From Phycisphaerae bacterium (GTDB taxonomy: Bacteria; Planctomycetota; Phycisphaerae; Phycisphaerales; UBA1924): a stretch of DNA of 48,685 bases. The notes below the pieces were generated by a model, which ran no database searches, was not told the origin of the DNA, and saw nothing but the letters and a program-made list of their open reading frames with translations. The stretch is from assembly GCA_030426395.1 (NCBI GenBank), contig JAUHYE010000014.1, positions 1 to 48,685 of the forward strand, given 5' to 3'. The translations under genes were made by a program, and so were the position numbers. Shown here piece after piece: positions 30,064 through 46,656 of the stretch. Positions within the stretch are counted from its first letter, which is position 1. Every line of letters begins with the position of its first letter.

Positions 30064-30095
30064 CTCTCTCACAGAGTCGAGACCGTGATTCCGAT

Positions 30096-30566: not shown

Positions 30567-30701
30567 CTTCAAGCTCCTTTATCTCACCGTCTCGATTCTC
30601 TTCTCGCGGTCGACCCCCCAGAGGCCGGCCCGGGGGATCAACGCCCGCCACCACCCACTATTGCGGCCCCCGCTGGCCATTTGCACCGTACCCTCAACCC
30701 C

Positions 30702-31610: not shown

Positions 31611-31687
31611 TCGCGTCTCTCTCCGCTCTGTGGTAGAGCGGGAACCCACGTTCCCGATCCCCTCGGAAACACGCAAGGAGAACGCAG

Positions 31688-32575
31688 ATGCTTCGCAAGA
31701 CCCTCTTCGCCCTCGCCGCCGCCGGCCTGGCCGCCACCGCCCAGGCCGACCGCATGTACGCCGTCGATGCAAGCACCGACAGCCTCTATACCTTCGATAG
31801 CGAGACCGGCGCCACGCTCAGCATGATCGGCCCGCTCCATCCCGACCCGACCCGCTACGTCACCCCCGTCAGCATGGCCGTGACCAACTCGGGGCTCATC
31901 TACGTCATCAACAACAGCCCCGACAGCGACGAGGGCCTCAGCCGAGTTGATCCCGCGACGGGCCTGGCCACCCACATCGGCGGAGACGTGCGCGGCTCGA
32001 TCTCCATCGGTCCCGGAAGCGTGATCTACGGCACCGACCTCGCCGGCCGCCTCGGCACCGTCAGCTCGTCCACCGGCACCGTCCGCTTGCTCGGCGGATC
32101 GACACTGCCCCGCCTCTTCGGCCTCGACTACAACACCCGCGACGGCTTCTTCTACGGCATCACGAGCGCCAGCCCGGGCTCCATCCCCGAGTTGCTGAAG
32201 ATCAATGCCTCGACCGGCGCCCTCGTCGCCACCATCCCCCTGAGCACCACCATCGTCGGCAGCGCCCCGGGCAGCATCGCCTTCCAACGCGACGGCACGC
32301 TCGTCATGACCGAGAACGGGCGCCGCCTGTGGGAGATCAACATCACTACCGGCCTGACCACGCTACGGGCCATCACGGCCAATGCGCCCCAGGGCCTGGG
32401 CCTTGCCCCTTGCATCGCAGACTTCGACGGCAACGGCACGCTCGACCTGTTCGACTTCCTCGCCTTCCAGAACGCCTTCGATGCGGGTGAGTTGGAAGCC
32501 GACCTCGACGGCGACGGCGTCCTCACGCTCTTCGATTTCCTGGCCTTCCAGAACGAGTTCGACGCCGGCTGCTAA
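31688..32575 (+). CDS. Secreted protein with GC-type dockerin-like tail
   Basis: A 295-residue protein with a signal peptide (TLFALAAAGLAATAQA), a propeller-like domain with repeated blades (MYAVDASTDSLYTFDSETGA, LSRVDPATGLATHIGG, LFGLDYNTRDGFFYGI, LWEINITTGLTTLRAI) and a C-terminal dockerin-like tail: DFDGNGTLDLFDFLAFQN, DLDGDGVLTLFDFLAFQN and FDAGC. Propeller plus dockerin is the same architecture as 29025-29918, so they are likely paralogues. AAGGAGAA precedes the ATG at 31688. Ligand unknown. Confidence 0.87.
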   Translation: MLRKTLFALAAAGLAATAQADRMYAVDASTDSLYTFDSETGATLSMIGPLHPDPTRYVTPVSMAVTNSGLIYVINNSPDSDEGLSRVDPATGLATHIGGDVRGSISIGPGSVIYGTDLAGRLGTVSSSTGTVRLLGGSTLPRLFGLDYNTRDGFFYGITSASPGSIPELLKINASTGALVATIPLSTTIVGSAPGSIAFQRDGTLVMTENGRRLWEINITTGLTTLRAITANAPQGLGLAPCIADFDGNGTLDLFDFLAFQNAFDAGELEADLDGDGVLTLFDFLAFQNEFDAGC

Positions 32576-32791
32576 GAGCCCAGGAGAATGCCAAAGTTAG
32601 CATTTACCCACATGCATGGAACAAGCCGCAACAGATTGCGAATAGAAGATTGACAGAGCATGACAAAGCCCGGGCCAATTCAGGCCCACCCGCATGAGAA
32701 TAAGTGGGTAAAAGGCCTCAACACACCACACCAGGCATGGCCAGCGTCCGGACTCATCCCCCGGCCCCTGGCCATGCCTTCTTTTGTGCGC

Positions 32792-34495
32792 TCAGCGGCG
32801 GTTGTCTTCTTCCTCGTCGTCGCCGAAGACGAACACCTCGGCGTCCTCGAAGACCTCTCCCCCGATTTCACCACCAACACCATCCTCGTCGACGAACGGC
32901 TCGCCATCACCCCCGCCCTCACCGGGAATGCGGAACAGGCTCTCGATCTCCTCGGGCGTCAGTTCGAGGTCCTCGCCCCGGTCGAGCGCGCTGGTGTCGA
33001 TCAGCCCGCGCTTGTCGCGCTTCTCGGCTTCCTCGCGACGCTTATCGAACTGCTTGCGACTCCGCACGAACACCCGGAACGGGATCTCGTCGAACGGCGC
33101 CTGCTCGCGCAAACGGTTCATCAGGTACCGCATGTAATTGGGCGTGAACAGCTTGGGCTCGTTCACCACCATCGCGATCGTCGGCGGGGCCGTCCCGACC
33201 TGCGCCACATAGAACACCCGGGCCATGGTGCCCAGCTTGTTGCTCGGCCCGCGCTTCTCCAGGATGCTCCGCACCAGCCGGTTGAGCGCCCCCGTCGATA
33301 CCCGCTCGTGTGCCTGCCCCTTCAGGTCGAAGGCCAAGTCCAGCACGCCATCGACGTTCAGCCCCTGCTTCGCGCTCAAGAGCGCAATGGGAGCAAACGG
33401 CAAACCCTTGAACCCCTCGCGCACGTACTTCTCGTACCGCTCGGGCGTCACGGGCCGGCCCTTGTCGTCGGTCTGCCCCTCGGCCAGGTCCCACTTGTTC
33501 ACGCCGATGATCGTCGGCTTGAACGCGTTCTGGCACAGCATGGCGAGCTGCTGGTCGACCTGGCTCGTCGGCTCGGTCGCGTCGACCATCAGCAGCACCA
33601 CGTCCGCACGGTCGATGGCCCGCTGCACCCGATCGAACGCGAACCACTCCACGCGGCCCTGGAAGCTCTTCTTCCGCCGCATGCCCGCCGTGTCGATCAC
33701 GATGATCCGCTTGCCATCCTTCTCCACCAGCACGTCGATGGCGTCGCGCGTCGTGCCGGCGATCTCCGACACGATCACCCGCTCGGCCCCCGCCAGCGCG
33801 TTCACCAGCGTGCTCTTGCCCGCGTTGCGCTTGCCGATGACCGCGATCGACAAATCAGCCGGCGGCGTGCTGGCCGTCTCCTCGTCGTCGGGCAGCAGCT
33901 CGTACAGCCGATCGCTCAGATCGCGCCGCATGTAGTTGTTCTTGGCGCTGCACATGAGCGGCTCGCCAAAACCCAGCGCGCTCATCTCGTACGCGTGGGT
34001 CTCCCACTTGGGCCCGTCCACCTTCGTCGCCACCACGTGCACCGGCGCCCGCTTGCCCAGGCTCGGGTCGAGTTTGGCAAGGTGGGCACGATCCTTCCGC
34101 CCCAGCTTCTGTTCGCGCAGCAGGCGGGCGATCTCCTCGTCGCGCGGCGTCAGCCCCGCCTGCACGTCGATGCAGAACAAAATCAGGTCTGCATCGGCCA
34201 CCGCCGCCTCGATCTGCCCCTCCACGTCGTCGGTCAGGGTCGACAGGTCGGCCCCCACCTCGTCAAACCGCTGGCCCTCGGCCACGTAGACCCCATAACC
34301 ACCCGTGTCGGTGATCTCCACGGGCCGCTCGCCCCGCCCGTCGCTGTGGGCCAGGTCGATGATCGTCGTCACGCGATCGCGCGTCACCCCCGGCATGTCG
34401 TCGACGATCGACACCTTCGAGTGGGCCAGCATGTTCATCAGCGAGCTCTTGCCCACATTGGGCCGGCCCACGATCGCGATCCGTGGTATAGGCAT
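32792..34495 (-). CDS. der: Ribosome biogenesis GTPase Der (EngA)
   Basis: A 567-residue protein with two tandem GTPase domains and a KH-like end, acting in 50S subunit maturation. Domain 1: GRPNVGKSSL, DTGGYG and, unusually, ATKVDG where NKxD is expected. Domain 2: GKRNAGKSTL, DTAGMRRKK and GVNKWDLAEG, all standard. KLFTPNYMRYLMNRLREQAP belongs to the KH-like domain. Beyond it are about 80 residues of charged linker and a very acidic tail (VFVFGDDEEEDNRR), longer than the usual 440-490 residue enzymes. The ATG at 34495 removes an upstream frame extension. Confidence 0.94.
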   Translation of the reverse strand: MPIPRIAIVGRPNVGKSSLMNMLAHSKVSIVDDMPGVTRDRVTTIIDLAHSDGRGERPVEITDTGGYGVYVAEGQRFDEVGADLSTLTDDVEGQIEAAVADADLILFCIDVQAGLTPRDEEIARLLREQKLGRKDRAHLAKLDPSLGKRAPVHVVATKVDGPKWETHAYEMSALGFGEPLMCSAKNNYMRRDLSDRLYELLPDDEETASTPPADLSIAVIGKRNAGKSTLVNALAGAERVIVSEIAGTTRDAIDVLVEKDGKRIIVIDTAGMRRKKSFQGRVEWFAFDRVQRAIDRADVVLLMVDATEPTSQVDQQLAMLCQNAFKPTIIGVNKWDLAEGQTDDKGRPVTPERYEKYVREGFKGLPFAPIALLSAKQGLNVDGVLDLAFDLKGQAHERVSTGALNRLVRSILEKRGPSNKLGTMARVFYVAQVGTAPPTIAMVVNEPKLFTPNYMRYLMNRLREQAPFDEIPFRVFVRSRKQFDKRREEAEKRDKRGLIDTSALDRGEDLELTPEEIESLFRIPGEGGGDGEPFVDEDGVGGEIGGEVFEDAEVFVFGDDEEEDNRR

Positions 34496-34579
34496 AGGCC
34501 CAATCGTACGCCGGTCGGCCCCCCGCCCCGGCCCCATCGGCCCGGACTGGCCGGCCAGAACCCCCTACCATCGCCAGTC

Positions 34580-34846
34580 ATGGAAAACCTCACCCCCGGC
34601 GCCACCGTGCGTATCACCCAGCAGTTCCCCCGCATGAGCGGCACGATGGTCACCACCGTCGAGGGCGTCGTCGTCCGCGTCGGCCAGGAAAAGTCCGGCT
34701 CCTGGTTCGCCCACACCAAGGACAACAAGGTCTGGATCGACCGCGTCGAGCTCCGCAAGAAGGACGGCGAGCTCGTCGTCCTCAACCTCGACCGCTTCTC
34801 GGCCGTCGAGGTGCTGGAAACGCCCAAGGCCGGAACGACCGGCTGA
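34580..34846 (+). CDS. Small conserved-looking protein of unknown function
   Basis: An 88-residue, beta-rich, SH3-barrel-like protein (VRITQQFPRMSGTMVTTVEG, VVRVGQEKSGSWFAHTKDN, VWIDRVELRKKDGELVVLNL). I do not recognise a named family. It starts at the ATG at 34580, 84 bp from the divergent der gene, and ends 9 bp before the next lipoprotein gene, so the two are probably co-transcribed. No signal peptide is seen, so it is probably cytoplasmic. Confidence 0.75.
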   Translation: MENLTPGATVRITQQFPRMSGTMVTTVEGVVVRVGQEKSGSWFAHTKDNKVWIDRVELRKKDGELVVLNLDRFSAVEVLETPKAGTTG

Positions 34847-34855
34847 GGCAACCCG

Positions 34856-35635
34856 ATGACGCCAGGGCCCCGAGCCATCTCAGCCCTGCTGCTCGCCCTG
34901 GCATTGCTCATTCCCCTTTCCGCCTGTGGCGCCCGCGGCGGGACCATCATCACCATCCGGGGCTCCGACCCCGACGAAGCGGAAGCCCTCCGGGCGTACT
35001 TCCCGCGCATCGAGACCGCCGTCGATGAGGTCGTCGCCGCCTACGGCATCGAGCACCTGACCGTCCGCGTCATCATCAAACCACTGGGCGGCCTGGGCGA
35101 GACCACGCCCGAAATCAGCTACACCGCCCGCGTGTTCGGTGGCAGCGTCTCGCTCAACAAACGACTCCTGCTCGACCCGCCGGACAACCTCGACGAAGTC
35201 CTGCTCGGCCTGTTCGCACACGAGCTGGCCCATGCCATGCATTACGACGCGATGAACACCGTCGACCTGATCATCTTCGGGCAGCGCTATCTCGCGTTCT
35301 ATAACAACCCCAACGGCGCCAACCAGAAGTGGGCCCGCTCCTACGAACGCCTGACCGACCTCACCGCCATCGCCCACGGCTTCGCCGGCCCCCTGGCCGC
35401 CCAGAAGCAAGCCAGCACGCACAACATCGAGAAGTATCGCCCCCGGAAGGTCTGGGACTTCTACCTCACCGGAGACGAGATCGCCCTCGCGGCCATGGAC
35501 GGCTCCGACCTGACCCAGCGCATCGACGCCCGGCTCGAAGAAGTGAAACTTCCCAGCCTGACCAACTGGGCCAAGCGCCGCCTGCTACCCCTGGTCGAAC
35601 AGCCCGAGACCCTTGCCCTCTCGACGCACGATTGA
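34856..35635 (+). CDS. Putative lipoprotein with HExxH metallopeptidase motif
   Basis: A 259-residue exported protein: LLLALALLIPLSACGARG has a lipobox (LSAC). The motif HELAHAMHYDAM is a gluzincin/minigluzincin-type HExxH with two His and Glu. Downstream, ERLTDLTAIAHGFA may contribute the third ligand (Glu or Asp), as expected for such peptidases. No family name can be given from sequence alone. It lies 9 bp after the 88-residue gene. The following 327 bp separate it from the phage-like cassette. Confidence 0.75.
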   Translation: MTPGPRAISALLLALALLIPLSACGARGGTIITIRGSDPDEAEALRAYFPRIETAVDEVVAAYGIEHLTVRVIIKPLGGLGETTPEISYTARVFGGSVSLNKRLLLDPPDNLDEVLLGLFAHELAHAMHYDAMNTVDLIIFGQRYLAFYNNPNGANQKWARSYERLTDLTAIAHGFAGPLAAQKQASTHNIEKYRPRKVWDFYLTGDEIALAAMDGSDLTQRIDARLEEVKLPSLTNWAKRRLLPLVEQPETLALSTHD

Positions 35636-35962
35636 TGTCCCGCACATCATGATTCCAAGATCACGCCTGCTTCTAAAAGCCGCTCACGCTCTCCCCGCTT
35701 CGCCGTCCCACACGGCTTTTCTTTTCCTCTGTGCCTCTGTGGTTATCTCCACTTTCGCGCGCACGTATTGACGCCATCCGCTTCTGGCGCACAACAAATC
35801 TGGAAGCAGGCCAAAGCCCGACAACTCAAGGGCGAATACAACCGCGCACGCGCACCCCACCACCACCCCCGCGCGCCCACACCCGTCCGACCGCCCGTTG
35901 GGTGACAGGCCCCCGAGTTCACGGGGCCAGCACCAAACGCCCTTTTGCAAGGGAGGTCGCCC
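35636..35962. other. Non-coding junction upstream of the phage-like cassette
   Basis: No gene of normal kind is supported. Around 35717-35750 is a pyrimidine-rich stretch, CCTCTGTGCCTCTGTGGTT, whose inverse complement reads as the ACCACAGAGGCACAGAGG type of sequence I recall as a dispersed element in several bacterial phyla. A TTG-started frame at 35768-35905 encodes 45 residues (GAQQIWKQAKARQLKGEYNR) but has no supporting evidence. No terminase gene is here. Confidence 0.6.
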
Positions 35963-37426
35963 GTGGCGTTCAATCTGGCACCCTTCACCGACACCACCCT
36001 GTCACCGCAGGCCCTCGAGATCATCCTGGCCGAGCACGAGCGCGACATCGCGCCCCGCCTCCACTGGCTCTGGGGCTACTTCCGCAACGAGCCAACACGC
36101 CCCGGCGGCGAGCTCCCCCAAGCCGCCGGCCTGCCGCCCAGATTGCGCGGCGCGTGGGACCCGTGGTCCGACGACCGCATGGTCGACGCCGCCACCAACG
36201 AGGTCGTCATCGAGAACGACATCGCCTGGCGCATCCACACCATGGTCGACTTCATGCTGCCCGAGCCGCTCGTGCTGCTCAGCACCGCCGGCCAGCCCCA
36301 GCACCGGCGCAACATCGAATCGGCACTCGACGCGGTGTGGGATGCCTCGGGCGGCCTCGCACTCCTGCACGACGCGCTCCTGCTCGGCCATGTGTACGGC
36401 CACGTCGACCTGCTCCTCCGCTGCGACATCGAGCGCCTCACAGCGCTCGCGCTCGATCTCGACACACTCCTCGAACTTCCCGGCGAGGTGCTCGCCGAGG
36501 CCATCCGCGTCGAGGCCGTCGACCCAACCCGCGGCGTGCCCATCGTCGACGCGGCCGACTACCGCCGCCTCGAGGCCTACGCCATCGACTTCACCCGACG
36601 CACGTCGCAGATCGACGAGCACGACCGCCACGGCCGCACACTCGACACCGAACGCGTCACCGAAGTCATCAGCGGCGCGTGGCGACAGGTGTACGTCGAT
36701 GGCGAGCTTGTGGCCGAAGGCCCCAATCGAGCATCGCCCGGCCGCGTCCCGGTGGTGCACATCCAGAACATCCCACAGCCGCTCTGCTACGCCGGCATCG
36801 GCGAGGTCGAGCCGCTCGCGCCGCTGCAAGACCAGCTCAACACACGCCTGAGCGACCGCGCCGCACGCGTGACCATGCAGAGCTTCAAGATGTACCTGGC
36901 CAAGGGCATCGAGGGATTCGATCAGGTCCGCATCGGCCCGGGCCGCGTGCTGAGCACCGACAACCCCGACGCGCAGGTCACGGCCTTCGGCGGCGACGCC
37001 GACTCGCCCAGCGAGACCGTCCACGTCGAAGAAATCCGCGAGGCGATGGACAAAGCGTCGGGCGTGCCGCCCATCGCCGCCGGCGTCGTCCGCGCCAAGA
37101 TCGGCAACCTCTCCAGCGGAAACGCGCTCCGCGTCACCATGCTGGGCCTGCTTAGCAAGACACGCCGCAAACGCGTCGGCTATGGCTCGGGCGTGGCGCG
37201 CATGAGCGCGCTCATTCTGGAGGCCCTTGATCGAGCCGGCACCTTCGTCACCGAACCGCAGGACCGCAAGGTCACGGTGCATTGGCCCGACGCCATCGAC
37301 CTCGACCAGGACGAGCGGCTGTTGAACGCCGAACGCAAGAACGAGCTGGGCATCAACCCCGAGCGCGTGCTGGCCGAGCTTGGCTACGCCCAAACCACAC
37401 CCAAATCGGAGAACACCAATGCCTGA
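35963..37426 (+). CDS. Phage portal protein
   Basis: A 487-residue protein with the layout of a tailed-phage portal (SPP1 gp6/HK97-like): an N-terminal wing (WLWGYFRNEPTRPGGE, IENDIAWRIHTMVDFMLPEP), a clip/stem region (GEVEPLAPLQDQLNTRLSDR) and a crown-like helical C-terminus with KASGVPPIAAGVVRAKIGNL and SGNALRVTMLGLLSKTRRKR. It would form the dodecamer through which DNA enters a capsid. The GTG at 35963, six nt after AAGGGAGG, is preferred to a TTG at 35945. The scaffold gene overlaps its end by eight bases. Identification is from overall pattern, not a close match. Confidence 0.75.
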   Translation: MAFNLAPFTDTTLSPQALEIILAEHERDIAPRLHWLWGYFRNEPTRPGGELPQAAGLPPRLRGAWDPWSDDRMVDAATNEVVIENDIAWRIHTMVDFMLPEPLVLLSTAGQPQHRRNIESALDAVWDASGGLALLHDALLLGHVYGHVDLLLRCDIERLTALALDLDTLLELPGEVLAEAIRVEAVDPTRGVPIVDAADYRRLEAYAIDFTRRTSQIDEHDRHGRTLDTERVTEVISGAWRQVYVDGELVAEGPNRASPGRVPVVHIQNIPQPLCYAGIGEVEPLAPLQDQLNTRLSDRAARVTMQSFKMYLAKGIEGFDQVRIGPGRVLSTDNPDAQVTAFGGDADSPSETVHVEEIREAMDKASGVPPIAAGVVRAKIGNLSSGNALRVTMLGLLSKTRRKRVGYGSGVARMSALILEALDRAGTFVTEPQDRKVTVHWPDAIDLDQDERLLNAERKNELGINPERVLAELGYAQTTPKSENTNA

Positions 37427-37883
37427 GAACACGCCCAACGAACCAGCCACCCCCGACAACGACCTGCGCGAGGCCCTGGCCGAACGCACGCAAATGGCGC
37501 ACGACCTGGCCGACCAGCTCCGCGCCCGCGACGCCGAACTCACCGACCTGCGCGACCGCGCCAGCAAGCTCGAACGCCGCGGCTCCATCGAGCGCGGGTT
37601 GGCCCAGGCCGGGGCGATCGACACCGAGTCGCTCGCGCTGCTGGTCGAGAGCCGTCTTGAGGGCGATGCCGACACCACCCCCCAGCGGGTGATCGCCCAA
37701 TTGCAACGCGAGCGGCCAGCGCTGTTCCGCTCGAGCTCGGCACGTGCGTCGGCCATGAGCCCGAGCCATCCCTCCCAGGGCGCGCCGGGTCGCGCGGTGG
37801 TCGATCGTGCGCACGACGACGCACGCGCCACCGGCGACCGGCGCGCCCTCATGAAGTACCTGCGGCTGCGACGCAGCACCTAA
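37419..37883 (+). CDS. Probable capsid scaffolding protein
   Basis: A 154-residue protein predicted largely coiled-coil: ALAERTQMAHDLADQLRARD, AELTDLRDRASKLERRGSIE, then a Ser/Arg-rich hinge and a basic tail (RALMKYLRLRRST). Position between portal and major capsid genes, small size, high charge and helical structure with a basic C-terminus are usual for phage scaffolds, in which the C-terminus contacts the coat protein. It starts with an ATG overlapping the portal stop. No sequence homology is claimed. Confidence 0.65.
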   Translation: MPENTPNEPATPDNDLREALAERTQMAHDLADQLRARDAELTDLRDRASKLERRGSIERGLAQAGAIDTESLALLVESRLEGDADTTPQRVIAQLQRERPALFRSSSARASAMSPSHPSQGAPGRAVVDRAHDDARATGDRRALMKYLRLRRST

Positions 37884-37958
37884 CCCCATCAACTCCGATT
37901 CGCGCCCTTGCCCCCGCTCCTGTTTCGCACGCCACGCAATTGATCAAAGGAGATTCGC

Positions 37959-39131
37959 ATGGCATTCACTGGTAAGGCAACCTTCTCGGCCGGCAGCTCG
38001 CTGCCCGAACTGGTCGAGGACGTGTCGGACATCATCGGCATCGTCAGCCCCTTCGAGACCCCGTTGCTCGACCACCTGGGCGACGCCCGCCGCGCCGCGG
38101 CCAGCACCGTCCACGAGTGGATCGAGGACGAGCTGCTGCCCAACACAGCGCTCGTCGACGCCCAGGCATTCTCGCCCACCGCCCAGACCGATACCACCGT
38201 CGACGTCGACGACGGCTCGCGCTTCCGCGTGGGCGACCTGGTCCGCCCCGGCGAGGGGCCCGAGGTCATGCTCGTCACGGGCATCTCGACGGACACCCTC
38301 ACGGTTGTGCGCGGGTACGGCTCGACCAGCCCTGTGTCGCTGGCCGAGGACATGGTGCTCACCATCCTGGGCAACGCGGCCCTCGAAGGCGCCGACGCGC
38401 CCGATGCGCGGTTCACCAACCGCGTGCGCAAGGCAAACTACACGCAGATCTTCACCGCCGCGGTCGAGGTCAGCGGGTCGATGCAGGCCGTCCGCGCGCA
38501 CGGCATCGCCGATGAGCTGGATTATCAGAAGCAGGAGCGCATGCGCGAGCTGCTACGGGATCTGGAAAACTGCGTCATCAACGGCGTGGCACCTGCGACC
38601 ACGCAACAGGGCTCGGGCACGGTCCGCCGTTCGATGAACGGCCTCATCCACAGCCTCCAGACCAATTTGTTCGAGCCTGGCGAGGGTGCCATGCCCGGCG
38701 GCTCGGGCGGCGCCAGTGACGGGCTGACCGAAGAGGTGCTCAACGCCTCCCTGCGCGAGGTGTGGGAGCAGTCGTCGGGCCCGATCGACACCATCGTGTG
38801 CGGCGGGCTCCAGAAGCGGCGTATCAACGCATTCCTGACATCGTCTCGTCGTTACGGCCCGAGCGATGATCGCTACAGCGACCTGGTGAGTGTGTACGAG
38901 AGCGACTTCGGCGTGTGCCGGGTGGTGGTCTCTCGTTGGATGCCATCCGACAGCCTGTTGCTGCTGGATTCCAGCCGCATCGAGGTGATGCCACTGGAAG
39001 GCCGCAGCTTCCACTACAAGCCGCTGGCGGCGACGGGTGATGCGGCGATGGGCCAGGTCATCGGCGAGTACACGCTCGAGATGCGCAATGAGAACGCGCA
39101 CGGCCTGCTGAGCGGCTTGGCGACTAGCTAA
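37959..39131 (+). CDS. Major capsid protein, SU10/DUF5309-like
   Basis: A 390-residue HK97-fold coat protein candidate. It begins ATFSAGSSLPELVEDVSDII and GIVSPFETPLLDHLG, has a beta insertion TTVDVDDGSRFRVGDLVRPG that resembles the inserted domain of SU10-type coats, and a helical spine segment DELDYQKQERMRELLRDLEN. The C-terminus has EVMPLEGRSFHYKPLAATGD and GEYTLEMRNENAHGLLSGL, close to the typical end of this family. CAAAGGAGA before the ATG at 37959 is the best ribosome site of the cassette. A strong hairpin follows at 39204. Confidence 0.8.
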   Translation: MAFTGKATFSAGSSLPELVEDVSDIIGIVSPFETPLLDHLGDARRAAASTVHEWIEDELLPNTALVDAQAFSPTAQTDTTVDVDDGSRFRVGDLVRPGEGPEVMLVTGISTDTLTVVRGYGSTSPVSLAEDMVLTILGNAALEGADAPDARFTNRVRKANYTQIFTAAVEVSGSMQAVRAHGIADELDYQKQERMRELLRDLENCVINGVAPATTQQGSGTVRRSMNGLIHSLQTNLFEPGEGAMPGGSGGASDGLTEEVLNASLREVWEQSSGPIDTIVCGGLQKRRINAFLTSSRRYGPSDDRYSDLVSVYESDFGVCRVVVSRWMPSDSLLLLDSSRIEVMPLEGRSFHYKPLAATGDAAMGQVIGEYTLEMRNENAHGLLSGLATS

Positions 39132-39203
39132 GCGGCCCGTCTCTCTCCCTCTGTGGCCCGCAGCGAAGGGCTCGGCGGTTTCGTGTGGGGGCGGCCGCCG
39201 GCT

Positions 39204-39233
39204 CGCGGGTCGGGTAACACCGGCCCGCGGGTT
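39204..39233 (+). terminator. Hairpin after the capsid gene, partial terminator
   Basis: The arms CGCGGGTCGG (39204-39213) and CCGGCCCGCG (39220-39229) pair with one G-U wobble around a 6-nt loop, followed by GGTTT. A leaky terminator here would raise coat-protein mRNA relative to downstream genes. Confidence 0.45.
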
Positions 39234-39276
39234 TGAAGAACGAAGGAACGGCGCCGGATGGCGCAAGGAGCACGCT

Positions 39277-39906
39277 ATGTTTGCACAGGACAGGGACATG
39301 CTCGCGATCGAGCCGCACGCCTTCACCGATGCGCTCTGGGCGGGGCGACGCCTAGCCTCGGGCCTTGGCAGCGTGAGCGGCACAACGCTGACCGCCACTG
39401 GCGCAACAGCCACCTTCATCGAAGCCCAGGCCGAGCCGGGACAAATCGTCGTGTTCAACGGCGTGCCTCTGGAGGTGGTCGAGGTCACATCGGGTACCGT
39501 ACTCGAGGTCTCGAAGCTGCGTGCATCGGTCGAGGACGACGCGCTGCCACCGGGGGATGGTTCTGGCGTCTCGTTCACACTGGTGTCGTTCGCGCCCCAA
39601 CTTGCCATCGTGCATCGGCAGTTATTGGGCATGCTGGGGCTCGATCGGCCGGACGGTCCCGGCGAAGAGGTTGTCGTCGATACGGCATCACTCGCGCACG
39701 CCGAGGCACTCGGCGCGCTGCATCTGGTCTACGCGGCGGCATCGGCGCTGAGTGGGCCCAATTCGGCGCTCGGCGCGCGAGCGGCGATGTACGCGGACAT
39801 GTTCTCGCGTGCGCGACAGGCGTTGGCCGTGGGCCTGGACCTGGACGGCGACGGTGTGGTCGACGCCACGCGGCGGCCCGCTCTGACGCAACTGGTGCGT
39901 GGCTGA
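39277..39906 (+). CDS. Phage-like head/connector protein of unknown precise role
   Basis: A 209-residue protein in the slot where head-tail connectors lie. The first part is beta-rich (GTTLTATGATATFIEAQAEP, QIVVFNGVPLEVVEVTSG); the second is helical (LAHAEALGALHLVYAAASAL, YADMFSRARQALAVGLDLDG). GDGVVDATRRP near its end is an Asp-rich loop like a calcium site. AAGGAG precedes the ATG at 39277. Assignment as connector is inferred from gene order only. Confidence 0.6.
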   Translation: MFAQDRDMLAIEPHAFTDALWAGRRLASGLGSVSGTTLTATGATATFIEAQAEPGQIVVFNGVPLEVVEVTSGTVLEVSKLRASVEDDALPPGDGSGVSFTLVSFAPQLAIVHRQLLGMLGLDRPDGPGEEVVVDTASLAHAEALGALHLVYAAASALSGPNSALGARAAMYADMFSRARQALAVGLDLDGDGVVDATRRPALTQLVRG

Positions 39907-39919
39907 AAGGAGGCTAGCG

Positions 39920-40339
39920 ATGCTGGTTCTGAATCCACAATCGGTGACGCTGCTGGGCGAGGTCGTGCAGCGAGTGCGGCGGGTTGCCGTCAATCGAGTG
40001 CCCGAGCGGGCGCTGCTGGAGTGGGGCAACATGGGCCCGTACGCGACGTTTGCGGACGTGCCAGAGCAGCGTGTTGAGCTCGAACTGGTGGCCGACCTGG
40101 AGCGTGGCTCGCTCGATGGACCGACGCCCGGTGATGCGGGCGAATTGGTGCTGTTTACCTCGCCCACGGCGGGCAGCGGTGGTCGGCGGCGCGTCGAGGC
40201 CAGCGTCGTGATCACGGCCGTGTACGACGAGGTCGAGCCGGGCGGGAAGGCGCAGCGGCGGATCAAGATGGCGGCGTTGTCGAGCGACGGCGTCGAGGAT
40301 CCGATCGATATCTCTCACGCCGAAGACGGCTCACGATAA
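39920..40339 (+). CDS. Phage-like head-completion candidate
   Basis: A 139-residue beta-rich protein (YATFADVPEQRVELELVADL, GELVLFTSPTAGSGGRRRVE, VVITAVYDEVEPGGKAQRRI). AAAGGAGG is 6 nt before the ATG at 39920, and the ribosome site lies in the gap after the preceding stop, which selects this start over a GTG at 39899. It is placed after the connector-like gene, but I do not recognise the family. Confidence 0.55.
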   Translation: MLVLNPQSVTLLGEVVQRVRRVAVNRVPERALLEWGNMGPYATFADVPEQRVELELVADLERGSLDGPTPGDAGELVLFTSPTAGSGGRRRVEASVVITAVYDEVEPGGKAQRRIKMAALSSDGVEDPIDISHAEDGSR

Positions 40340-40355
40340 GAAAGGAGCGTGTGTG

Positions 40356-40751
40356 ATGCCGAGCATGTTCAATGGATCGCCGTTGTTCGCAAGTGGTCCG
40401 CACCGGTTCGTGATGCAGCGGCGGGGGCAGACCGAGATCGAGCCTGGTAAGCCGGCGACGATTCAGACGCAGCCGAACCCAAAGTGGACGCAGATCGGGT
40501 TGGTGCAACTGTCGATTTCGGTGCGTGGTCGGCTGGTGGCGGCCAGCGAAGAAGACCTGTGGACGCTGCGCGATGCGATCACGGGTGCGCTGGCGGCTAC
40601 GCCCGGCGCGGGCTCGGGAACGCTCGAGGACGGCAACGGGCAGACATGGCCTGACATGTGGCTTATCGGGTATACCGAGACCGGACCGGTGGACGCGGGA
40701 CGTGAGTGGTCGATCGGGTACGAGGCCGTGTTCCGGTATGTGGGGCAGTGA
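40356..40751 (+). CDS. Phage-like tail-completion/unknown protein
   Basis: A 131-residue protein (FVMQRRGQTEIEPGKPATIQ, QIGLVQLSISVRGRLVAASE, TWPDMWLIGYTETGPVDAGR). AAAGGAG lies upstream of ATG at 40356. Its stop overlaps the start of the next gene by one base (TGATG). Size and position are compatible with a tail terminator/completion factor, but that is an inference from order alone. Confidence 0.5.
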   Translation: MPSMFNGSPLFASGPHRFVMQRRGQTEIEPGKPATIQTQPNPKWTQIGLVQLSISVRGRLVAASEEDLWTLRDAITGALAATPGAGSGTLEDGNGQTWPDMWLIGYTETGPVDAGREWSIGYEAVFRYVGQ

Positions 40752-41038
40752 TGATGCAGGGCGACGTCGTTGGCATGTTGGCGCAGTTCGGGATGGCCGG
40801 GCTGATCGCCTGGATGTGGTTGACCGAACGACGGGCGGCGCTCGTGCGTGAGAAGCAGATCGAGGAGAGCCACCGCCGGCTGTCGCAGGAGCGCGAGGCA
40901 CTGGGCGTGGTGCTGGGCGTGGTGGAGGCGAACACCCGGGCAATGGTGTCGCTCGAGCTGGGGCAGCGCGAGCTTGTGGGATTGCTGCGTGGCATGGGCG
41001 TGGATGGTGCGGCTGGTGTCGCGCAGCGTGTGAGCTGA
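40751..41038 (+). CDS. Small membrane/coiled-coil protein, holin-like
   Basis: A 95-residue protein with one N-terminal hydrophobic segment (VVGMLAQFGMAGLIAWMWLT) followed by a charged helix (ERRAALVREKQIEESHRRLS). This single-helix-plus-charged-coil layout resembles BhlA/UviB-type holin proteins. It is the last gene of the cassette, coupled to the preceding gene through TGATG. Toxicity or lysis activity is untested. Confidence 0.5.
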   Translation: MMQGDVVGMLAQFGMAGLIAWMWLTERRAALVREKQIEESHRRLSQEREALGVVLGVVEANTRAMVSLELGQRELVGLLRGMGVDGAAGVAQRVS

Positions 41039-41044
41039 GCGCAC

Positions 41045-41080
41045 AAAAAAGTGGGACCCCCGGCGGACTCCGGGGGCCCC
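41045..41080 (-). terminator. Strong terminator of the dockerin gene at 41138
   Basis: The arms 41053-41063 and 41070-41080 form an 11-bp GC-rich stem with one mismatch; AAAAAA at 41045-41050 gives a U-run on the minus strand. It also faces the phage-like cassette, so it may end transcripts from both sides. Confidence 0.85.
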
Positions 41081-41137
41081 GTGGTCACTCAGAAGGTATT
41101 ACTTGTGACCAGAATTCGGGATGTCGAATCGTGTGGA

Positions 41138-42715
41138 TTACTCGCAGCCGGCGTCAAATTCGTTCTGGAAGACCAGGAAGTCGAAGAGGGTCAGGATGCC
41201 GTCGCCGTCGAGGTCGGCCATCAGGTCGCCCGCATCGAACTGGTTCTGGAAGCAGAGGAAGTCGAAGAGGGTCAGGACGCCATCGCCATCGCAGTCGGCG
41301 ATGCAGCCGGCGTCACCCTGGGTGTAGCCGATGTCGTCGAAGCAGCTCTCGCGGCCGTCGACACGAACCGAGCCGATGAGGCTGTCCGAGACGTAGCTGA
41401 AGGGGACCATGGTGCCGTCGCCGGGGCCGAAGCCACCGACGATGCGGAACGCACAGACCTCGTTGCCGGCCATGTCGAAGAAGGTGACGACGTCGTCGCC
41501 GACGCCGGCGGCCGTGGCCATGCCCTTGAAGCCGGTGATGCCACCGATGCCGGTGAAGTCGTAGGTGAAGCTCCCGAAGCCGAACTGCACGCCGAACTTG
41601 GTGCCACTGCTGGCCTGGACGACGCCGCCGGGCGAACGGAAGTCGCTCCAGTTGCCCTCGTCGACCGAAGCGTGGAAGACCGAGCCGTCGATGATCGGAA
41701 CGTCGCCGCCGAAGACAGCGGTGATGGCCGAACGGGCGCCGGGGTAGCTCTCGTAGTCATCGGTGGCGTCGGCGGTGAAATCGCCTTCGGTCACCGGGCA
41801 CGGGGGAGCCAGGAAGGTGTCGGTGCGCCAGCCGGCGCCACCGCTGCCGAATGGCGACGCGGTAACGGTAACCTCGGCGGTGTAGCTGCCGTTGGCAAGG
41901 CTGACGTAGCCGCTGGACCAACGTGGGTCGGCGAAGGCGCTGTCATAGTCGCCGCCGATGCTGTCACCCTCGGTGGGATCGGGGCTGGTGGAGAACGCGG
42001 CGACTTCCGAGCCACCCTGGAGAATGCGGACGTCGAACTCGTCGCCCGAAAGGAAGGCGTCGGTGATCTTGAAGGTCGGGCAACCGGCGGTGATGTCGAA
42101 ATCGAATTCGACCACGTCGCCGAGGCCACCGAAGGTGAAGGGCGTCCAGTCGATGCAGGGCGCGATGCCGTCGCTGGAGATACCCAGGTCATCGAAGCAT
42201 GTCTCGCGACCGGTCAGGCGGATCGAACCGATCGGGACCGGCGAGACGAAGCTGAGGGCCTGCATGGTGCCGTCGCCGGGGCCGAAGCCGTCGGGATCGG
42301 TCACGGTGCCGGTCATGGGGTTACCGGCCATGTCGAAGAACTCGATCATGTCGGCGCCCACGCCGGCGGCGGTGGCGTTGCACGAGAAGCCCGTGATGCC
42401 ACCGATGCCGGTGAAGTCGAGCGAGAAACCGCCGAAACCGAACTGCACGCCGAAGATGCCACCCGAGGTGGGAACAACCGGGCTGCCGCCACGGAAGTCG
42501 ATCCAGTCGCCGGCGTTGACGGAGTTGTGGGTGACGGTACCGGGAACGACGGGCACGAGTCCGGCGAACAGGTTATTGATGACGACGCGACCGCCGCCAG
42601 TGCCCTCATAGTCCTCGGTGGCGGAAGGCGCAAACGCGCCGGGCGAAACCTGGGCGAACGTGGTACCAGCGGCCGCGAGGATCGCGGCTGCGACGAAAGC
42701 CTTCTGAGTATTCAT
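41138..42715 (-). CDS. Secreted 525-residue protein with internal duplication and GC-type dockerin-like tail (paralogue A)
   Basis: A signal peptide (NTQKAFVAAAILAAAGTTFA) precedes two copies of one beta domain, near residues 25-180 and 310-460. Both show YEGTGGGR/YESYPGAR, then SVNAGDWIDFR/SVDEGNWSDFR, FGVQFGFG, DFTGIGGITGF and FFDMAGN. Between them is a unique segment with DITAGCPTFKITDAFLSGDE. The C-terminal dockerin-like pair (DCDGDGVLTLFDFLCFQN, DLDGDGILTLFDFLVFQN) ends FDAGCE. Its role is unknown but surface association is likely. It is the same length as 44661-46238 and very similar along the whole length. Start is ATG 42715. The gene has a long upstream region with conserved blocks and its own terminator. 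Confidence 0.88.
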   Translation of the reverse strand: MNTQKAFVAAAILAAAGTTFAQVSPGAFAPSATEDYEGTGGGRVVINNLFAGLVPVVPGTVTHNSVNAGDWIDFRGGSPVVPTSGGIFGVQFGFGGFSLDFTGIGGITGFSCNATAAGVGADMIEFFDMAGNPMTGTVTDPDGFGPGDGTMQALSFVSPVPIGSIRLTGRETCFDDLGISSDGIAPCIDWTPFTFGGLGDVVEFDFDITAGCPTFKITDAFLSGDEFDVRILQGGSEVAAFSTSPDPTEGDSIGGDYDSAFADPRWSSGYVSLANGSYTAEVTVTASPFGSGGAGWRTDTFLAPPCPVTEGDFTADATDDYESYPGARSAITAVFGGDVPIIDGSVFHASVDEGNWSDFRSPGGVVQASSGTKFGVQFGFGSFTYDFTGIGGITGFKGMATAAGVGDDVVTFFDMAGNEVCAFRIVGGFGPGDGTMVPFSYVSDSLIGSVRVDGRESCFDDIGYTQGDAGCIADCDGDGVLTLFDFLCFQNQFDAGDLMADLDGDGILTLFDFLVFQNEFDAGCE

Positions 42716-42950
42716 CTCTTACAAGCCCCCTAATACAGGAACTCCAAACTTGTGCGGCTGGTACGGCACCAGCCACTACAGAACCACAGACAACCGGCAT
42801 CCCTCCTCGAGACGCCAGGGTCAGCAAGTACTTCAAAGATCACGAACAAGAACAACGCGTGTGTTGAACCCGCCGCGATACCTCCTTTGGGAGCCCCCAC
42901 TCCAAGTCACAAGCCACCATCCGGTCACGAGCCGGGCGATGCCTTGCTTC
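42716..42950 (-). promoter_or_regulatory. Putative conserved 5' leader of dockerin paralogue A
   Basis: Upstream of the ATG at 42715 are blocks that recur in the same order upstream of paralogue B. Plus-strand coordinates: hairpin GGCTGGT/ACCAGCC 42756-42774 preceded by GTGCGG; GGGTCAGCAAG 42818-42828; CCCGCCGC 42869-42876; CTCCTT 42882-42887; CCGGTCACGA 42921-42930. Distances from the start are about 41, 103, 154, 167 and 206 nt. No credible protein spans the region. A transcribed leader is inferred. Confidence 0.5.
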
Positions 42951-43071
42951 GTCCGTCGGCGGTGCGAGCGTTGCTGGAACGGCAGTCAACCGCTGGGCCC
43001 GTAGGCGTGGGTCGATGCGAGAAGCCTGCCCCCAAGAATCCCTCGTGCCTCTCCGACTTCGATCACATTTA

Positions 43072-43100
43072 GTAATGCGATGGACTCGTGGACTTGTCAA
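43072..43100 (-). promoter_or_regulatory. Candidate promoter for dockerin paralogue A
   Basis: A perfect TTGACA lies on the minus strand (43100-43095). The -10 around 43077-43071 (CATTAC or ATTACT) is weak. If used, it gives a leader of about 350 nt. Confidence 0.4.
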
Positions 43101-43129
43101 GAGCATTTTGGTGCTCGTGAGAATATTTT

Positions 43130-43158
43130 TTGACCAACGTGGTAATTCTGCGTAGAAC
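43130..43158 (+). promoter_or_regulatory. Candidate sigma-70 promoter of the KAS gene
   Basis: TTGACC (43130-43135) and TAGAAC (43153-43158) have 17-bp spacing and lie 95 bp before the ATG at 43253. Confidence 0.5.
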
Positions 43159-43252
43159 CAAGTGCCCAGCAGCACCGCCGAGTCGGGCGGGCGGTGGGGC
43201 TACGGTCTCGCCGTTTGGTTTCACGTTGGGTGTTTGACGATGGAGTGAACTC

Positions 43253-44584
43253 ATGCGGGACGAGCGTCGGGTCGTGGTCACGGGCATGGGCTGGGTCACG
43301 CCCCTTGGGAGCGATCTGGACGGGGCGTGGGAGGCTCTGATGGCCGGCCGGAGCGCGGCGGGGCCGGTGCTGGGATTCGACGCGAGTGGGTTCGCCACCA
43401 GTTTTGCCGCCGGGGTGCGGGGGTTTGATCTCGTGGACCACATGGGAGCCCAGGCGGCTGGGCATGCCTCGGCGGGACGAGCAACGGCGTTCGCCCTGGC
43501 GGCCGGCAGCCAGGCGTGGCGGCGGGCGGGGCTGGGAGGTGGCGGTGTCGACCCCCGGCGGGCGGGGTTGTATCTGGGGGCGGGCGAGAGCAGCCCCGAC
43601 AGTGCGGTGTTCGGGCGGCTATGTATCGGTGCCTGGGATGCCGAAGCCCGGGCCCTTGACGATCGCCGGTGGGCGGATGGGTCGGGCGAGCTCGACGTGA
43701 TGCGGGAGGTGGAGCAGGAGCCGCAGATGGCCCTGGCGCACCTGGCCGCGGCGCTGGACCTTCGGGGCCCCTCGATGAACTGCATGACGGCCTGTGCGGC
43801 GAGCACGCAGGCGATCGGCGAGGCGACCGAGGTGATCCTGCGGGGCGACGCCGACGTGATGGTCAGCGGGGGTTGCCACTCGATGATCCACCCGCTTGGG
43901 ATGACCGGGTTCGTCCGCCTCACGGCGATGAGTACGCGCAACGATGATCCGGCCGGGGCGTCTCGGCCGTTCGATCGGACGCGTGACGGGTTTGTCATGG
44001 GCGAGGGGGCGGGCGTGCTTGTGCTCGAGGGGTTGGAGCACGCGCGTGCGCGCGGGGCGCGGCCGCTTGCGGAAGTGGTTGGGTATGGCTCATCGGCCGA
44101 CGCGTATCGGATCACGGACATCGACCCCGAGGGCGAGGGCGCGTGGCGCGCGATGTCGCGGGCGCTCGAGCAGGCTGGGATCGATCCGGCCGAGCTCGGC
44201 GGGGATGGTCGGCCGGGCGTGCATTACATCTCGGCGCACGGGACCGGCACGCGGGAGAACGACGGCATCGAGACCCGCGCGGTGAAACGGTTGTTTGGCG
44301 AGCACGCGGGCGGGGTGCCCATGAGCAGCGTGAAGAGCATGCTCGGGCACCTGATCCAGGCCGCGGGTGCTGTGGAGCTGATCGCGTGCATCCGTTCGAT
44401 GCAAACGGGCTGGCTGCCGCCGACGATCAACTATCGCGAGCCCGACGAAGCGTGCGACCTGGACTATGTGCCCAATGTCGCACGGGACGTGCGCGAGGCC
44501 GGTGGTGTTGGCGTGTGCCTGTCAAATAGTTTCGGTTTTGGCGGGCAGAACGATTCGGTCGTCGTGCGTCGCTGGATGGAGTGA
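43253..44584 (+). CDS. Beta-ketoacyl-ACP synthase, FabF-like
   Basis: A 443-residue thiolase-fold condensing enzyme. VVVTGMGWVTPLGSDLDGAW opens the N-terminal half; the catalytic Cys is in MNCMTACAASTQAIGEA; the first active His is in YISAHGTGTREND; VKSMLGHLIQAAGA contains the Lys and second His; the end is CLSNSFGFGGQNDSVV. It would extend acyl chains with malonyl-ACP in fatty acid or polyketide synthesis. No ACP, reductase or dehydratase is adjacent, so this is an isolated copy and its product is unknown. The ATG at 43253 fits MRDERRVVVTGMG. It lies between two dockerin paralogues; a hairpin follows. Confidence 0.92.
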   Translation: MRDERRVVVTGMGWVTPLGSDLDGAWEALMAGRSAAGPVLGFDASGFATSFAAGVRGFDLVDHMGAQAAGHASAGRATAFALAAGSQAWRRAGLGGGGVDPRRAGLYLGAGESSPDSAVFGRLCIGAWDAEARALDDRRWADGSGELDVMREVEQEPQMALAHLAAALDLRGPSMNCMTACAASTQAIGEATEVILRGDADVMVSGGCHSMIHPLGMTGFVRLTAMSTRNDDPAGASRPFDRTRDGFVMGEGAGVLVLEGLEHARARGARPLAEVVGYGSSADAYRITDIDPEGEGAWRAMSRALEQAGIDPAELGGDGRPGVHYISAHGTGTRENDGIETRAVKRLFGEHAGGVPMSSVKSMLGHLIQAAGAVELIACIRSMQTGWLPPTINYREPDEACDLDYVPNVARDVREAGGVGVCLSNSFGFGGQNDSVVVRRWME

Positions 44585-44592
44585 GCACAATG

Positions 44593-44620
44593 AAAAAGGC
44601 CCCGGACGAATCCGGGGCCT
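44593..44620 (-). terminator. Terminator between KAS gene and dockerin paralogue B
   Basis: AGGCCCCGGA (44597-44606) and TCCGGGGCCT (44611-44620) pair perfectly with a 4-nt loop. A-run 44593-44597 gives a U-run for the minus-strand transcript; the hairpin also follows the KAS stop by 12 bp. Confidence 0.88.
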
Positions 44621-44660
44621 CGAACTTACTCAGAAGGTATTCGAACGAACCGTGCTGGAA

Positions 44661-46648: not shown

Positions 46649-46656
46649 GGCCCAAG

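Follow-up and report, generated by a model that had tools for sequence, protein, structure and literature searches.

The seven-gene cassette at positions 35963-41038 of the window, by which we mean the whole 48,685-nucleotide stretch of Phycisphaerae DNA analysed, is best explained as one half, comprising the head and a short tail, of a tailed phage that its host has domesticated and kept, with the other half at a second locus. We consider it likely that the two together form a vertically inherited system of Planctomycetota resembling a gene transfer agent (GTA); its particles, packaging and transfer are inferred, and none has been observed.

The head cassette and its products

All seven genes are on the same strand and have intact reading frames. 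The features considered here are as follows.

34580..34846, + strand: c8, conserved neighbour, 88 aa; no Pfam family above cut-off
35885..35905, + strand: conserved block GTCCGACCGCCCGTTGGGTGA upstream of the portal gene, from an alignment of six same-genus upstream regions
35963..37426, + strand: gene 1, portal protein, 487 aa, GTG start; PF05133 4.2e-12, phrog_104 5.5e-20
37419..37883, + strand: gene 2, scaffold-like protein, 154 aa; position between portal and capsid genes, same-place homologues
37959..39131, + strand: gene 3, major capsid protein (MCP) of SU10 type, 390 aa; PF17236 (SU10_MCP) 1.5e-87
39277..39906, + strand: gene 4, probable head-tail adaptor, 209 aa; position and same-place homologues
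39920..40339, + strand: gene 5, tail tube protein by model, 139 aa, alternative GTG start at 39899; AlphaFold2 pLDDT 92.6
40356..40751, + strand: gene 6, baseplate-hub/Dit-like tail-tip protein by model, 131 aa, alternative GTG start at 40353; AlphaFold2 pLDDT 85.8
40751..41038, + strand: gene 7, holin/spanin-like, 95 aa; one hydrophobic segment and a charged, coiled-coil-like tail

The coordinates agree with the tight packing described in the first-pass annotation, the portal gene overlapping gene 2 by 8 bp (37419-37426) and gene 6 overlapping gene 7 by 1 bp (40751). The strong ribosome sites that it reported hold for six of the seven genes, which by eye are preceded by GGAG/AGGAG-type sites; gene 7 has no clear site by the same inspection. 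Its statement that base composition is similar to that of the neighbours also stands, because the cassette has a GC of 0.678 against 0.660 across the surrounding 21.7-kb stretch. Across genomes the GC of the cassette tracks that of the host over a range of 0.41-0.71. GC skew changes at the capsid gene in the window and in four of five other same-genus loci, though not as a general rule. The cassette was rightly placed between ordinary genes: Pfam was searched with 22 of the 35 other called genes in the window, and every gene that matched is a household gene, such as a tRNA pseudouridine synthase, an EngA-type GTPase, a ketoacyl synthase and a class II tRNA synthetase. The neighbour c8, which may be a host gene, lies upstream of the portal gene in several loci of the window's family (f1) and in one from f5, and in two f2 loci it flanks the cassette. 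The block GTCCGACCGCCCGTTGGGTGA is a candidate promoter or activator site, a function inferred from its conservation.

On profile evidence the identities of the portal and MCP, as originally annotated, are certain, and the gene 3 profile additionally matches the solved capsids 9ny2, 9in6 and 7z45. The scaffold-like character assigned to gene 2 is supported by its position and same-place homologues and only weakly by profiles (PF06810 at 0.017, below cut-off; phrog_206 at 0.04). Genes 4-7 match no Pfam or phrog family above any cut-off. Homologues of gene 4 occupy the equivalent position in each of the 20 order loci compared and in four class loci; its probable role as a head-tail adaptor is inferred, without a family or useful PDB match. 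The model of gene 5 finds the tail tube of phage R4C as its top PDB match (1.5e-4), with chains of the RcGTA particle and lambda V ranked lower, and that of gene 6 matches the baseplates of phages Milano, 7-7-1 and Mu as well as SPP1 Dit; a gene 6 homologue in f5 has a weak DNA_circ_N match (0.0025, below cut-off). Genes 5 and 6 therefore model as tail-tube and baseplate-hub/Dit-like proteins, and not as the two completion-like genes originally proposed, so that the description of the cassette as lacking a tail was wrong. Gene 7, with a hydropathy peak at residues 6-22, has weak matches to phrog_32121 (0.0045, unknown function) and phrog_2429 (0.13), and its homologue in locus L046 weakly matches phrog_89, a spanin (0.019), and phrog_1625 (0.022). 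The window gave no recognisable tape-measure or receptor-binding protein.

A second locus and common descent

The cassette lacks a terminase only in its immediate surroundings. An intact large terminase (TerL; phrog_2 1e-16, PF17289 8e-6) lies on another contig of the same genome, in an operon with the order HTH–ABC ATPase–GNAT–TerL, and motifs which we identified by eye as Walker A (RGGGKT), Walker B (RCDE) and the nuclease aspartates D317, D371, D457 and D461 are invariant in all 12 sequences aligned. The family PF03237 proved too insensitive for this protein, matching in eight of 23 genomes at E<=0.01 and exceeding its cut-off in three. Among phages, those of Arthrobacter rank first for TerL, with 23-26% identity. 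In other lineages the operon additionally carries ParB-like and TerS-like genes, and this TerS-like gene is missing from the window's own genome. One palindromic site, CAAACAWT-N9-WTTGTTTG, and a divergent gene for an XRE-HTH/S24 (CI/LexA-like) repressor precede the operon. As this palindrome was not found at the head cassette, and a search for a palindrome common to both loci found none, co-regulation of the two has not been shown.

The two modules co-occur. In 301 genomes of the order, an even draw and not all of its genomes, the MCP (sought with one protein, E<=1e-3) was matched in 159, and the portal and TerL (sought with profiles, E<=1e-10) in 162 and 168, respectively. All three were found in 145, or in 141 once matches weaker than 1e-20 were excluded (MCP in G110, G011, G191 and G269; TerL in G031, G052, G112, G166 and G199; portal in G110, G288 and G292). 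Without the weak TerLs, 147 genomes have both MCP and TerL, 12 only the MCP, 16 only TerL and 126 neither. Within f1, all three are present in 102 of 118 genomes and no genome lacks all of them; outside f1, TerL is found in 43 of the 46 genomes with MCP and portal as opposed to 13 of the 137 without that pair. Beyond the order, TerL was matched in ten of ten same-class MCP carriers, in all ten tested of 24 carriers from other classes (weakly, and in the nuclease part only), and in none of six non-carriers. The co-occurrence test makes no correction for shared ancestry. Twelve genomes have TerL with neither MCP nor portal, four of them by weak matches; one of the twelve, G025, is a single-contig genome with a strong TerL. 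The first-pass annotation had offered modules elsewhere as one option and had advised looking in the rest of the genome for a terminase of co-varying presence; the conserved terminase operon, at its separate locus, fits that option.

In the order the terminase and head loci are loosely linked, with a median distance of 40 kb in the 52 genomes where MCP and TerL places are listed on one contig (a set that favours short distances and leaves out G297 and G059) and with distances of 27-129 kb in eight single-contig genomes. In some class genomes they are farther apart: G573 has them about 0.17 Mb from each other, G595 0.7 Mb and G422 1 Mb. By profile or by place, no terminase adjoins the cassette in the 20 order loci and eight class or phylum loci compared; in exception lineages the terminase operon lies 10-20 kb away and extra fibre-like genes occur inside the cassette. 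Complete prophages at this locus in relatives would have refuted the original proposal, and none was seen in these 28 loci, with the reservation that the integrase search did not cover every flanking gene.

The MCP tree of 30 genomes from seven families, with G033 represented by residues 57 onward only, is correlated with that of RpoB (Mantel r 0.80, a value reached in 0 of 999 permutations); the two trees have 18 of 27 splits in common, and 17 of the 21 strong RpoB splits are recovered. For TerL the correlation is 0.95 (n=12, being those of the 30 genomes with a fetched, whole-looking TerL, including G059, with an extra stretch, and G297). Uncorrected pN/pS is 0.10-0.44 for the system genes and 0.17-0.33 for the neighbouring ketoacyl synthase gene. 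Gene 2 was sampled in three genomes and genes 4-7 in four; locus L033, with no full portal, was omitted, and the portal of L036 has one in-frame stop, probably from a hand-set end. Judged by these comparisons, both modules descend with the chromosome, and the cassette and terminase genes are under purifying selection. For the MCP most genomes give a single match, and most of the places listed have stop-free frames. Many genomes have two portal matches or a partial one; the portal of G053, when fetched, was in one piece, and in G012, one of seven same-genus species, the gene is in pieces about 67 kb apart. Together with the at least 15 of 159 late-starting MCP matches described below, the split portal of G012 suggests that loss is tolerated.

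Those features of a GTA that sequence can reveal are present: head and packaging genes of phage origin with an intact TerL, vertical inheritance with near-universal presence in f1, purifying selection and, within the genes searched (the seven cassette genes, the searched genes of the TerL operon and the 22 of 35 other window genes), the absence of integrase, replication or other self-mobilising genes. The functional features, particles filled with mostly random host DNA in amounts too small for the system's own genes and delivery of that DNA to recipient cells, are inferred. A GTA-like unit with its other modules elsewhere, the first of three options originally offered, is strongly supported because the terminase operon co-occurs with the cassette, the capsid tree follows the host and selection is purifying. 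In the sequence of events that we infer, stress would relieve the S24 repressor and the HTH protein would switch on the head cassette; scaffold and capsid would then assemble on the portal, the terminase would fill the head with chromosomal DNA, and the short tail would be added to the filled head. Gene 7 may help to lyse the cell, and the particles would deliver host DNA to relatives. Counting against the GTA-like reading are the minimal tail, the missing TerS-like gene, the lack of a common palindrome, the signs that loss is tolerated, the genomes with TerL alone, the wide separation of the loci in some class genomes and the viral contigs with related capsids.

Competing explanations and capsid-bearing elements

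The capsid is the most conserved part of the system, with a mean column identity of 74% (alignment A6) against 38-53% in other alignments, no tail gene was recognisable in those loci of f2, f4 and f8 that were read, and the window's own genome is without the TerS-like gene, all of which would suit a domesticated capsid that no longer packages DNA and serves as an empty or protein-filled shell, as a killing particle or in some other host use. However, such a shell needs neither a portal nor a terminase, so the conservation of both (TerL with its catalytic motifs) and their co-occurrence with the capsid count against it, as does the tail tube retained in f1, and we regard this reading as unlikely. 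Particles might also package DNA for a purpose other than gene transfer (DNA sequestration, nutrient sharing and phage interference are examples), which would be compatible with a tail that is minimal here and unrecognised in several lineages. The tail tube and tail-tip genes kept in f1, together with fibre-like modules at the G010 (f5), G039 and G061 (f6) and G573 (f9) loci, make this highly improbable.

A remnant of an ordinary prophage might likewise comprise only structural genes, the 22 flanking genes searched include no phage gene and no integrase, and the broken portal of G012 has the look of decay; but near-universality in a family, mostly single matches per genome, mostly stop-free frames, a tree congruent with that of RpoB and purifying selection leave this barely credible. 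The earlier judgment that this is not a decayed prophage of the usual kind is upheld by the intact frames, the selection and the tree, and an ordinary prophage, complete or decayed, was rejected given a distribution that is not patchy in f1, household genes among the flanking genes searched and a host-like tree. Origin of the cassette as a fragment of a phage satellite, or of a mobile element of another kind, would account for the few genes and for the lack of a visible lysogeny module, and real capsid-bearing mobile elements do exist in these genomes. Those elements behave in the opposite way to the cassette, which descends with the host: the mobile capsid element is 92-95% identical across families whose MCPs are about 62% identical. 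We therefore hold the fragment reading to be very unlikely.

The elements themselves interrupt the capsid gene. In at least 15 of the 159 order genomes with an MCP match, that match begins only at residue 55–57, and in all seven such loci fetched the gene is interrupted, at one conserved site (codons 57-60), by a 10.4–11.6-kb serine-recombinase element that carries a capsid gene of its own. Four of the recombinases are 92–93% identical across families with MCPs of about 62% identity. The element also encodes a sigma-like factor, and its capsid has, by eye, a protease-like front part; the capsid match is partial or broken in five of 12 linked copies, and no terminase, portal or tail match was found in the one copy annotated. 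It is possible that these elements are parasites of the GTA-like system. A fuller version, which we put forward only tentatively and would not yet favour, is that in nature the system carries DNA from one species to another and that the approximately 11-kb elements are its satellites: they would integrate in the capsid gene, silence it and supply their own capsid and sigma-like factor, and the portal, terminase and tail borrowed from the system would then package the element and not host DNA. Capsid-forming phage satellites (cf-PICI) have their own capsid gene and depend on a phage. The present elements are similar in carrying a capsid gene, integrating at one site and, in the one copy annotated, giving no terminase, portal or tail match, and differ in sitting in the capsid gene of a vertically inherited system, with no phage dependence seen. 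If they do depend on the system, they would be natural evidence that its particles really move DNA.

Relation to viruses and known gene transfer agents

SU10-type phages and their uncultivated relatives have the same capsid family (PF17236) as the cassette. A scan of viral contigs with a single protein returned one 41-residue match, and a scan with the capsid profile found 171 stretches encoding relatives, of which 80 were kept; a purely cellular capsid was accordingly rejected. Among the best 80 of the 171, the closest capsids are 63, 60 and 56% identical, followed by 43% and below. Of the three closest, contig L332 has a long cassette (portal, scaffold-like gene, MCP, gene 4, gene 6 and more) and may be a misfiled chromosome, and in L275 and L276 no portal could be recognised with the capsid. 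Of 16 capsid contigs inspected, six (IMG/VR L279, L281, L282, L284, L287 and L288) encode the same kind of TerL upstream of the capsid (E 3e-47 to 4e-58). These are contigs of 10-102 kb with capsids only 37-40% identical to that of the cassette, and the three stretches read hold many further genes. A complete, contiguous SU10-type phage genome was excluded here, the searched flanks of the window being household and TerL on another contig.

Encapsulins are a domesticated HK97-fold shell, and encapsulin systems are not known to have a portal, terminase or tail. An encapsulin nanocompartment, with a lone shell gene and a cargo enzyme, was ruled out since portal and terminase co-occur with the capsid.

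As described in PMC9662315, RcGTA and RcGTA-like GTAs (Rhodogtaviriformidae) likewise have host-inherited structural and packaging genes over several loci, and RcGTA likewise combines TerL and an HK97-type capsid with vertical descent. Moreover, the models of genes 5 and 6 match solved RcGTA particle chains (6toa_G and 6tba_50). In contrast to RcGTA, the cassette capsid matches only SU10-type families (no RcGTA sequence was aligned), the terminase operon includes the ABC ATPase and GNAT genes and elsewhere ParB-like genes, the phylum is different, and no tape measure was recognised in the Phycisphaerales system. The SU10-only capsid matches and the ranking of Arthrobacter phages for TerL speak against membership of Rhodogtaviriformidae, an inference made without RcGTA sequences or a joint tree. 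The GTAs of Bartonella (type II), Brachyspira and others are also domesticated tailed-phage genes, with which no sequence was compared, and are independently exapted groups according to PMC9662315. The prevalence of GTAs is unknown, since they resemble prophage remnants and are split over loci (PMC11841831), and those studied are mainly from Alphaproteobacteria, plus Desulfovibrio and Brachyspira (PMC12946183). We found no described GTA of Planctomycetota in the literature searched.

A two-locus, vertically inherited packaging system that spans the order, its class and, probably, further Planctomycetota classes would add what looks like an independent origin of GTAs. The combination of an SU10-type capsid cassette with an HTH–ABC–GNAT–TerL operon gives a genomic signature for searches elsewhere, and why hosts keep such systems becomes a directly testable question.

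The head cassette and its tail-like genes

Seven intact genes occupy window positions 35963-41038 on the forward strand, as the first-pass annotation had described, and its account of gene overlaps and base composition agrees with ours. Three have recognisable roles from profile matches:

Gene 1, forward strand: portal (PF05133, phrog_104)
Gene 2, forward strand: scaffold-like, a weak assignment
Gene 3, forward strand: SU10-type major capsid protein (PF17236, 1.5e-87)

The capsid profile also matched the solved heads 9ny2, 9in6 and 7z45, and genes 4-7 gave no curated-family match above the cut-off. Gene 4 is a probable adaptor on the basis of position only, and gene 7, with a single hydrophobic stretch followed by a charged coiled-coil-like tail, could be a holin, a spanin or neither, a question that stays open. 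The ordinary surroundings noted earlier were also recovered: among the 22 of 35 other called window genes searched in Pfam, those that matched were household genes and no integrase or phage gene was seen.

The cassette had been thought to lack tail genes, a view not borne out by AlphaFold2 models of gene 5 (57-sequence alignment, mean pLDDT 92.6) and gene 6 (61-sequence alignment, 85.8). For the gene 5 model the top match was the siphophage R4C tail tube (E 1.5e-4); further tail and neck proteins came next, among them lambda V and chains from the particle of RcGTA, a known gene transfer agent (GTA). For gene 6, the highest-ranked matches were Milano and 7-7-1 phage baseplate proteins (5e-4), with RcGTA chains, the Mu baseplate and SPP1 Dit below them. 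Since the TM-scores of these matches are moderate (0.64 or less), we claim only a fold class, and not close kinship, in describing genes 5 and 6 as predicted tail proteins.

Uncorrected pN/pS against the source genome was 0.10-0.44 for the seven cassette genes and the large terminase (TerL), and 0.17-0.33 for the adjacent ketoacyl synthase gene, while cassette GC tracks that of each host from 0.41 to 0.71. Several local features were also observed. The GC skew flips sign near the capsid gene (window 30000-47000), as it does in four of five other same-genus loci, a pattern that is not general. A block 5' of the portal, GTCCGACCGCCCGTTGGGTGA (35885-35905), conserved across six same-genus genomes, is perhaps a promoter or activator site. 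The protein encoded at 31688-32575 ends in two copies of a FDFLAFQNxFDAG tag, and downstream of the cassette the ketoacyl synthase gene is flanked by two minus-strand members of one protein cluster (41138-42715 and 44661-46256), neither with a Pfam family match.

Across 20 loci compared, capsid and gene 4 were present in all, the portal lay within the stretch in 19, and the scaffold-like gene and gene 7 were each found in 18. The portal of genome G033 lies beyond an inserted element, and only the portal end falls within the stretch of the same-genus genome G012. There (L033, L175; G012:C1:3226064-3294751) the portal gene is split, with roughly 67 kb between its two parts. A lipoprotein-like gene then follows in 11 of 21 clustered loci, none from the window's genus. 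Gene 5 was recognised only in loci of the window's family, f1; gene 6 was recognised in families f1, f5 and f6 and in a single f9 locus. The cassettes of G010 (f5), G039 and G061 (f6) and G573 (f9) also hold several kilobases of genes that resemble fibre or lectin genes, a label resting on weak tail-collar and tail-fibre matches and on Laminin_G matches, one of them strong; these genes are missing from the G049 (f6) and G437 (f9) loci, and the f2, f4 and f8 loci read held no recognisable tail genes. As we read these differences, either the ancestral cassette was longer and has eroded in several lineages, or tail genes have moved to other places; the data do not discriminate between the two. 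In another class, three genomes of family f30 (L208-L210) carry the same capsid type in a longer cassette, each adjoining what by eye looks like an arginyl-tRNA synthetase gene, possibly a parallel vertically inherited system.

A terminase operon away from the cassette

The absence of a terminase does not hold genome-wide, as a TerL profile search of the source genome found an intact 482-aa gene (phrog_2 1e-16, PF17289 8e-6) on contig C106, away from the cassette. In 12 aligned homologues its RGGGKT and RCDE motifs never vary, nor do four acidic residues, D317, D371, D457 and D461. TerL is the last gene of an operon that begins with a sigma-r4-like HTH gene, an ABC ATPase and a GNAT gene; relatives' operons have extra genes 5' of TerL, one labelled ParB-like on a weak match (PF02195 0.13) and one TerS-like on position only. 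In G059 (L083 8634-10703), TerL is a 689-aa open frame in which an in-frame extra stretch, possibly an intein, separates the two matching parts.

Beside the operon lies a divergent gene whose product, with HTH and S24 peptidase domains (read in the G012 copy, 87% identical to that of the source genome over 228 residues), is by its domains a CI/LexA-like repressor. Between the two, next to a promoter-like stretch, is the palindrome CAAACAWT-N9-WTTGTTTG. Allowing up to two mismatches, it occurs at this place in six of seven same-genus genomes and at five further places across the seven, and was not found at the head cassette.

An element inside the capsid gene

Of the 159 order genomes that carry the capsid, at least 15, representing 15 genera, have a match that starts at residue 55-57. 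In all seven such loci fetched (L196-L202; G164, G033, G128, G242, G143, G122 and G097), the first 60 or so capsid residues are split from the rest by 10.4-11.6 kb, the insertion lying at codons 57-60 of the GTA-like capsid gene. The annotated G033 element encodes a large serine recombinase, HARE-HTH, AAA_25, a sigma-r2 protein, a DNA methylase and a 632-aa Phage_capsid_4/Mu gpT-type capsid, the front of which looks by eye like a prohead protease; no terminase or portal match was found in it.

Four of the seven elements, counting the f2 copy and spanning f1 and f2, have recombinases 92-93% identical to that copy. Of the f1 copies in this group, three in all, two have intact element capsids 94-95% identical to that of f2, although the hosts' own capsids in this comparison share 61-63% identity. 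The remaining three elements are less closely related (recombinases 63-69%). In 12 of the 15 genomes, 3.8-5.4 kb separates the element capsid from the downstream portion of the interrupted gene; five of these 12, G164 among them, give a partial or broken match to the element capsid. Relatives of the element capsid occur in 85 of 301 order genomes. Eight of 11 further stretches examined share a common 3.2-kb capsid module with no such recombinase in the stretch read, so the module is not tied solely to the GTA-like gene; in another, G029, recombinase and capsid-gene piece are again present. That the element depends on the GTA-like machinery is a hypothesis.

Descent, distribution and relatives

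Capsid and RpoB trees were compared in 30 genomes of seven families, 12 of them with TerL. Capsid and RpoB gave a Mantel r of 0.80, a value reached in none of 999 permutations, shared 18 of 27 splits and agreed on 17 of 21 strong RpoB splits; the two trees disagree chiefly near f5, f6 and the class-level families. TerL (n=12) gave r 0.95 with RpoB and 0.92 with capsid.

An even draw of 301 order genomes held capsid in 159, TerL in 168 and portal in 162, with all three in 145 and none in 121. Within f1, 102 of 118 genomes had all three and no genome lacked them all. Outside f1, capsid and portal occurred together in 46 genomes, 43 of which also had TerL, against 13 of 137 others, counts that are uncorrected for shared ancestry. 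TerL stood without capsid or portal in 12 genomes, including the single-contig G025. When 392 phylum genomes were scanned with the capsid profile, 53 matched: 19 belong to the order, another 10 to the rest of the class and 24 to other classes, two of the 24 matching weakly. TerL accompanied capsid in all 10 class genomes outside the order, across most of its length, and in all 10 tested of the 24 beyond the class, weakly and in the nuclease part only; it was absent from all six capsid non-carriers outside the order. A capsid scan of named genomes, of which the best 80 of 232 stretches were kept, included two non-phylum titles, 'Cyanobacteria' and 'Vicinamibacteraceae', which we take for misnamed bins. 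Head and TerL loci lie close together in the order, 10-649 kb apart (median 40 kb, 52 same-contig cases, a set biased toward short distances) and 27-129 kb apart in eight single-contig order genomes of 3.5-5.2 Mb; in the class the distance varies from about 11 kb (G613) through about 0.17 Mb (G573) and 0.7 Mb (G595) to 1 Mb (G422).

Against 50,697 phage records, the best-ranked matches reached 33% identity for capsid and 26% for TerL. The capsid profile found many distant capsids in IMG/VR. Of 16 capsid contigs inspected there, six (L279, L281, L282, L284, L287 and L288; capsid 37-40%) also encode this kind of TerL (E 3e-47 to 4e-58), 5' of the capsid; two more had weak TerL pieces. A phage group with both genes together therefore exists, and is plausibly a cousin of the system's ancestor. 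The viral contigs L275 and L276 have capsids that share 63% and 56% identity with the GTA-like capsid, with no recognisable portal beside them, and may reflect exchange with phages or misfiled DNA.

We found no description of a GTA in Planctomycetota in the literature searched, although preprints and most subscription journals were outside its scope and a description may exist. In the portions available, PMC8597652 describes three Phycisphaerales MAGs with incomplete prophage regions (tail, tail fibre) and raises GTAs only as a general possibility, PMC13055281 places a GTA operon in a Rhodobacteraceae MAG, and in PMC12213060 the term appears only among the references. Membership of the Phycisphaerales system in the RcGTA family is not shown and looks unlikely because of its capsid type. 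Particles, packaging and transfer are inferred here, and the earlier suggestion of a GTA-like unit with modules elsewhere gains support from an intact packaging motor outside the cassette, the joint occurrence of the modules, their descent with the host and purifying selection on them, which together favour a cassette and TerL that work like a gene transfer agent.
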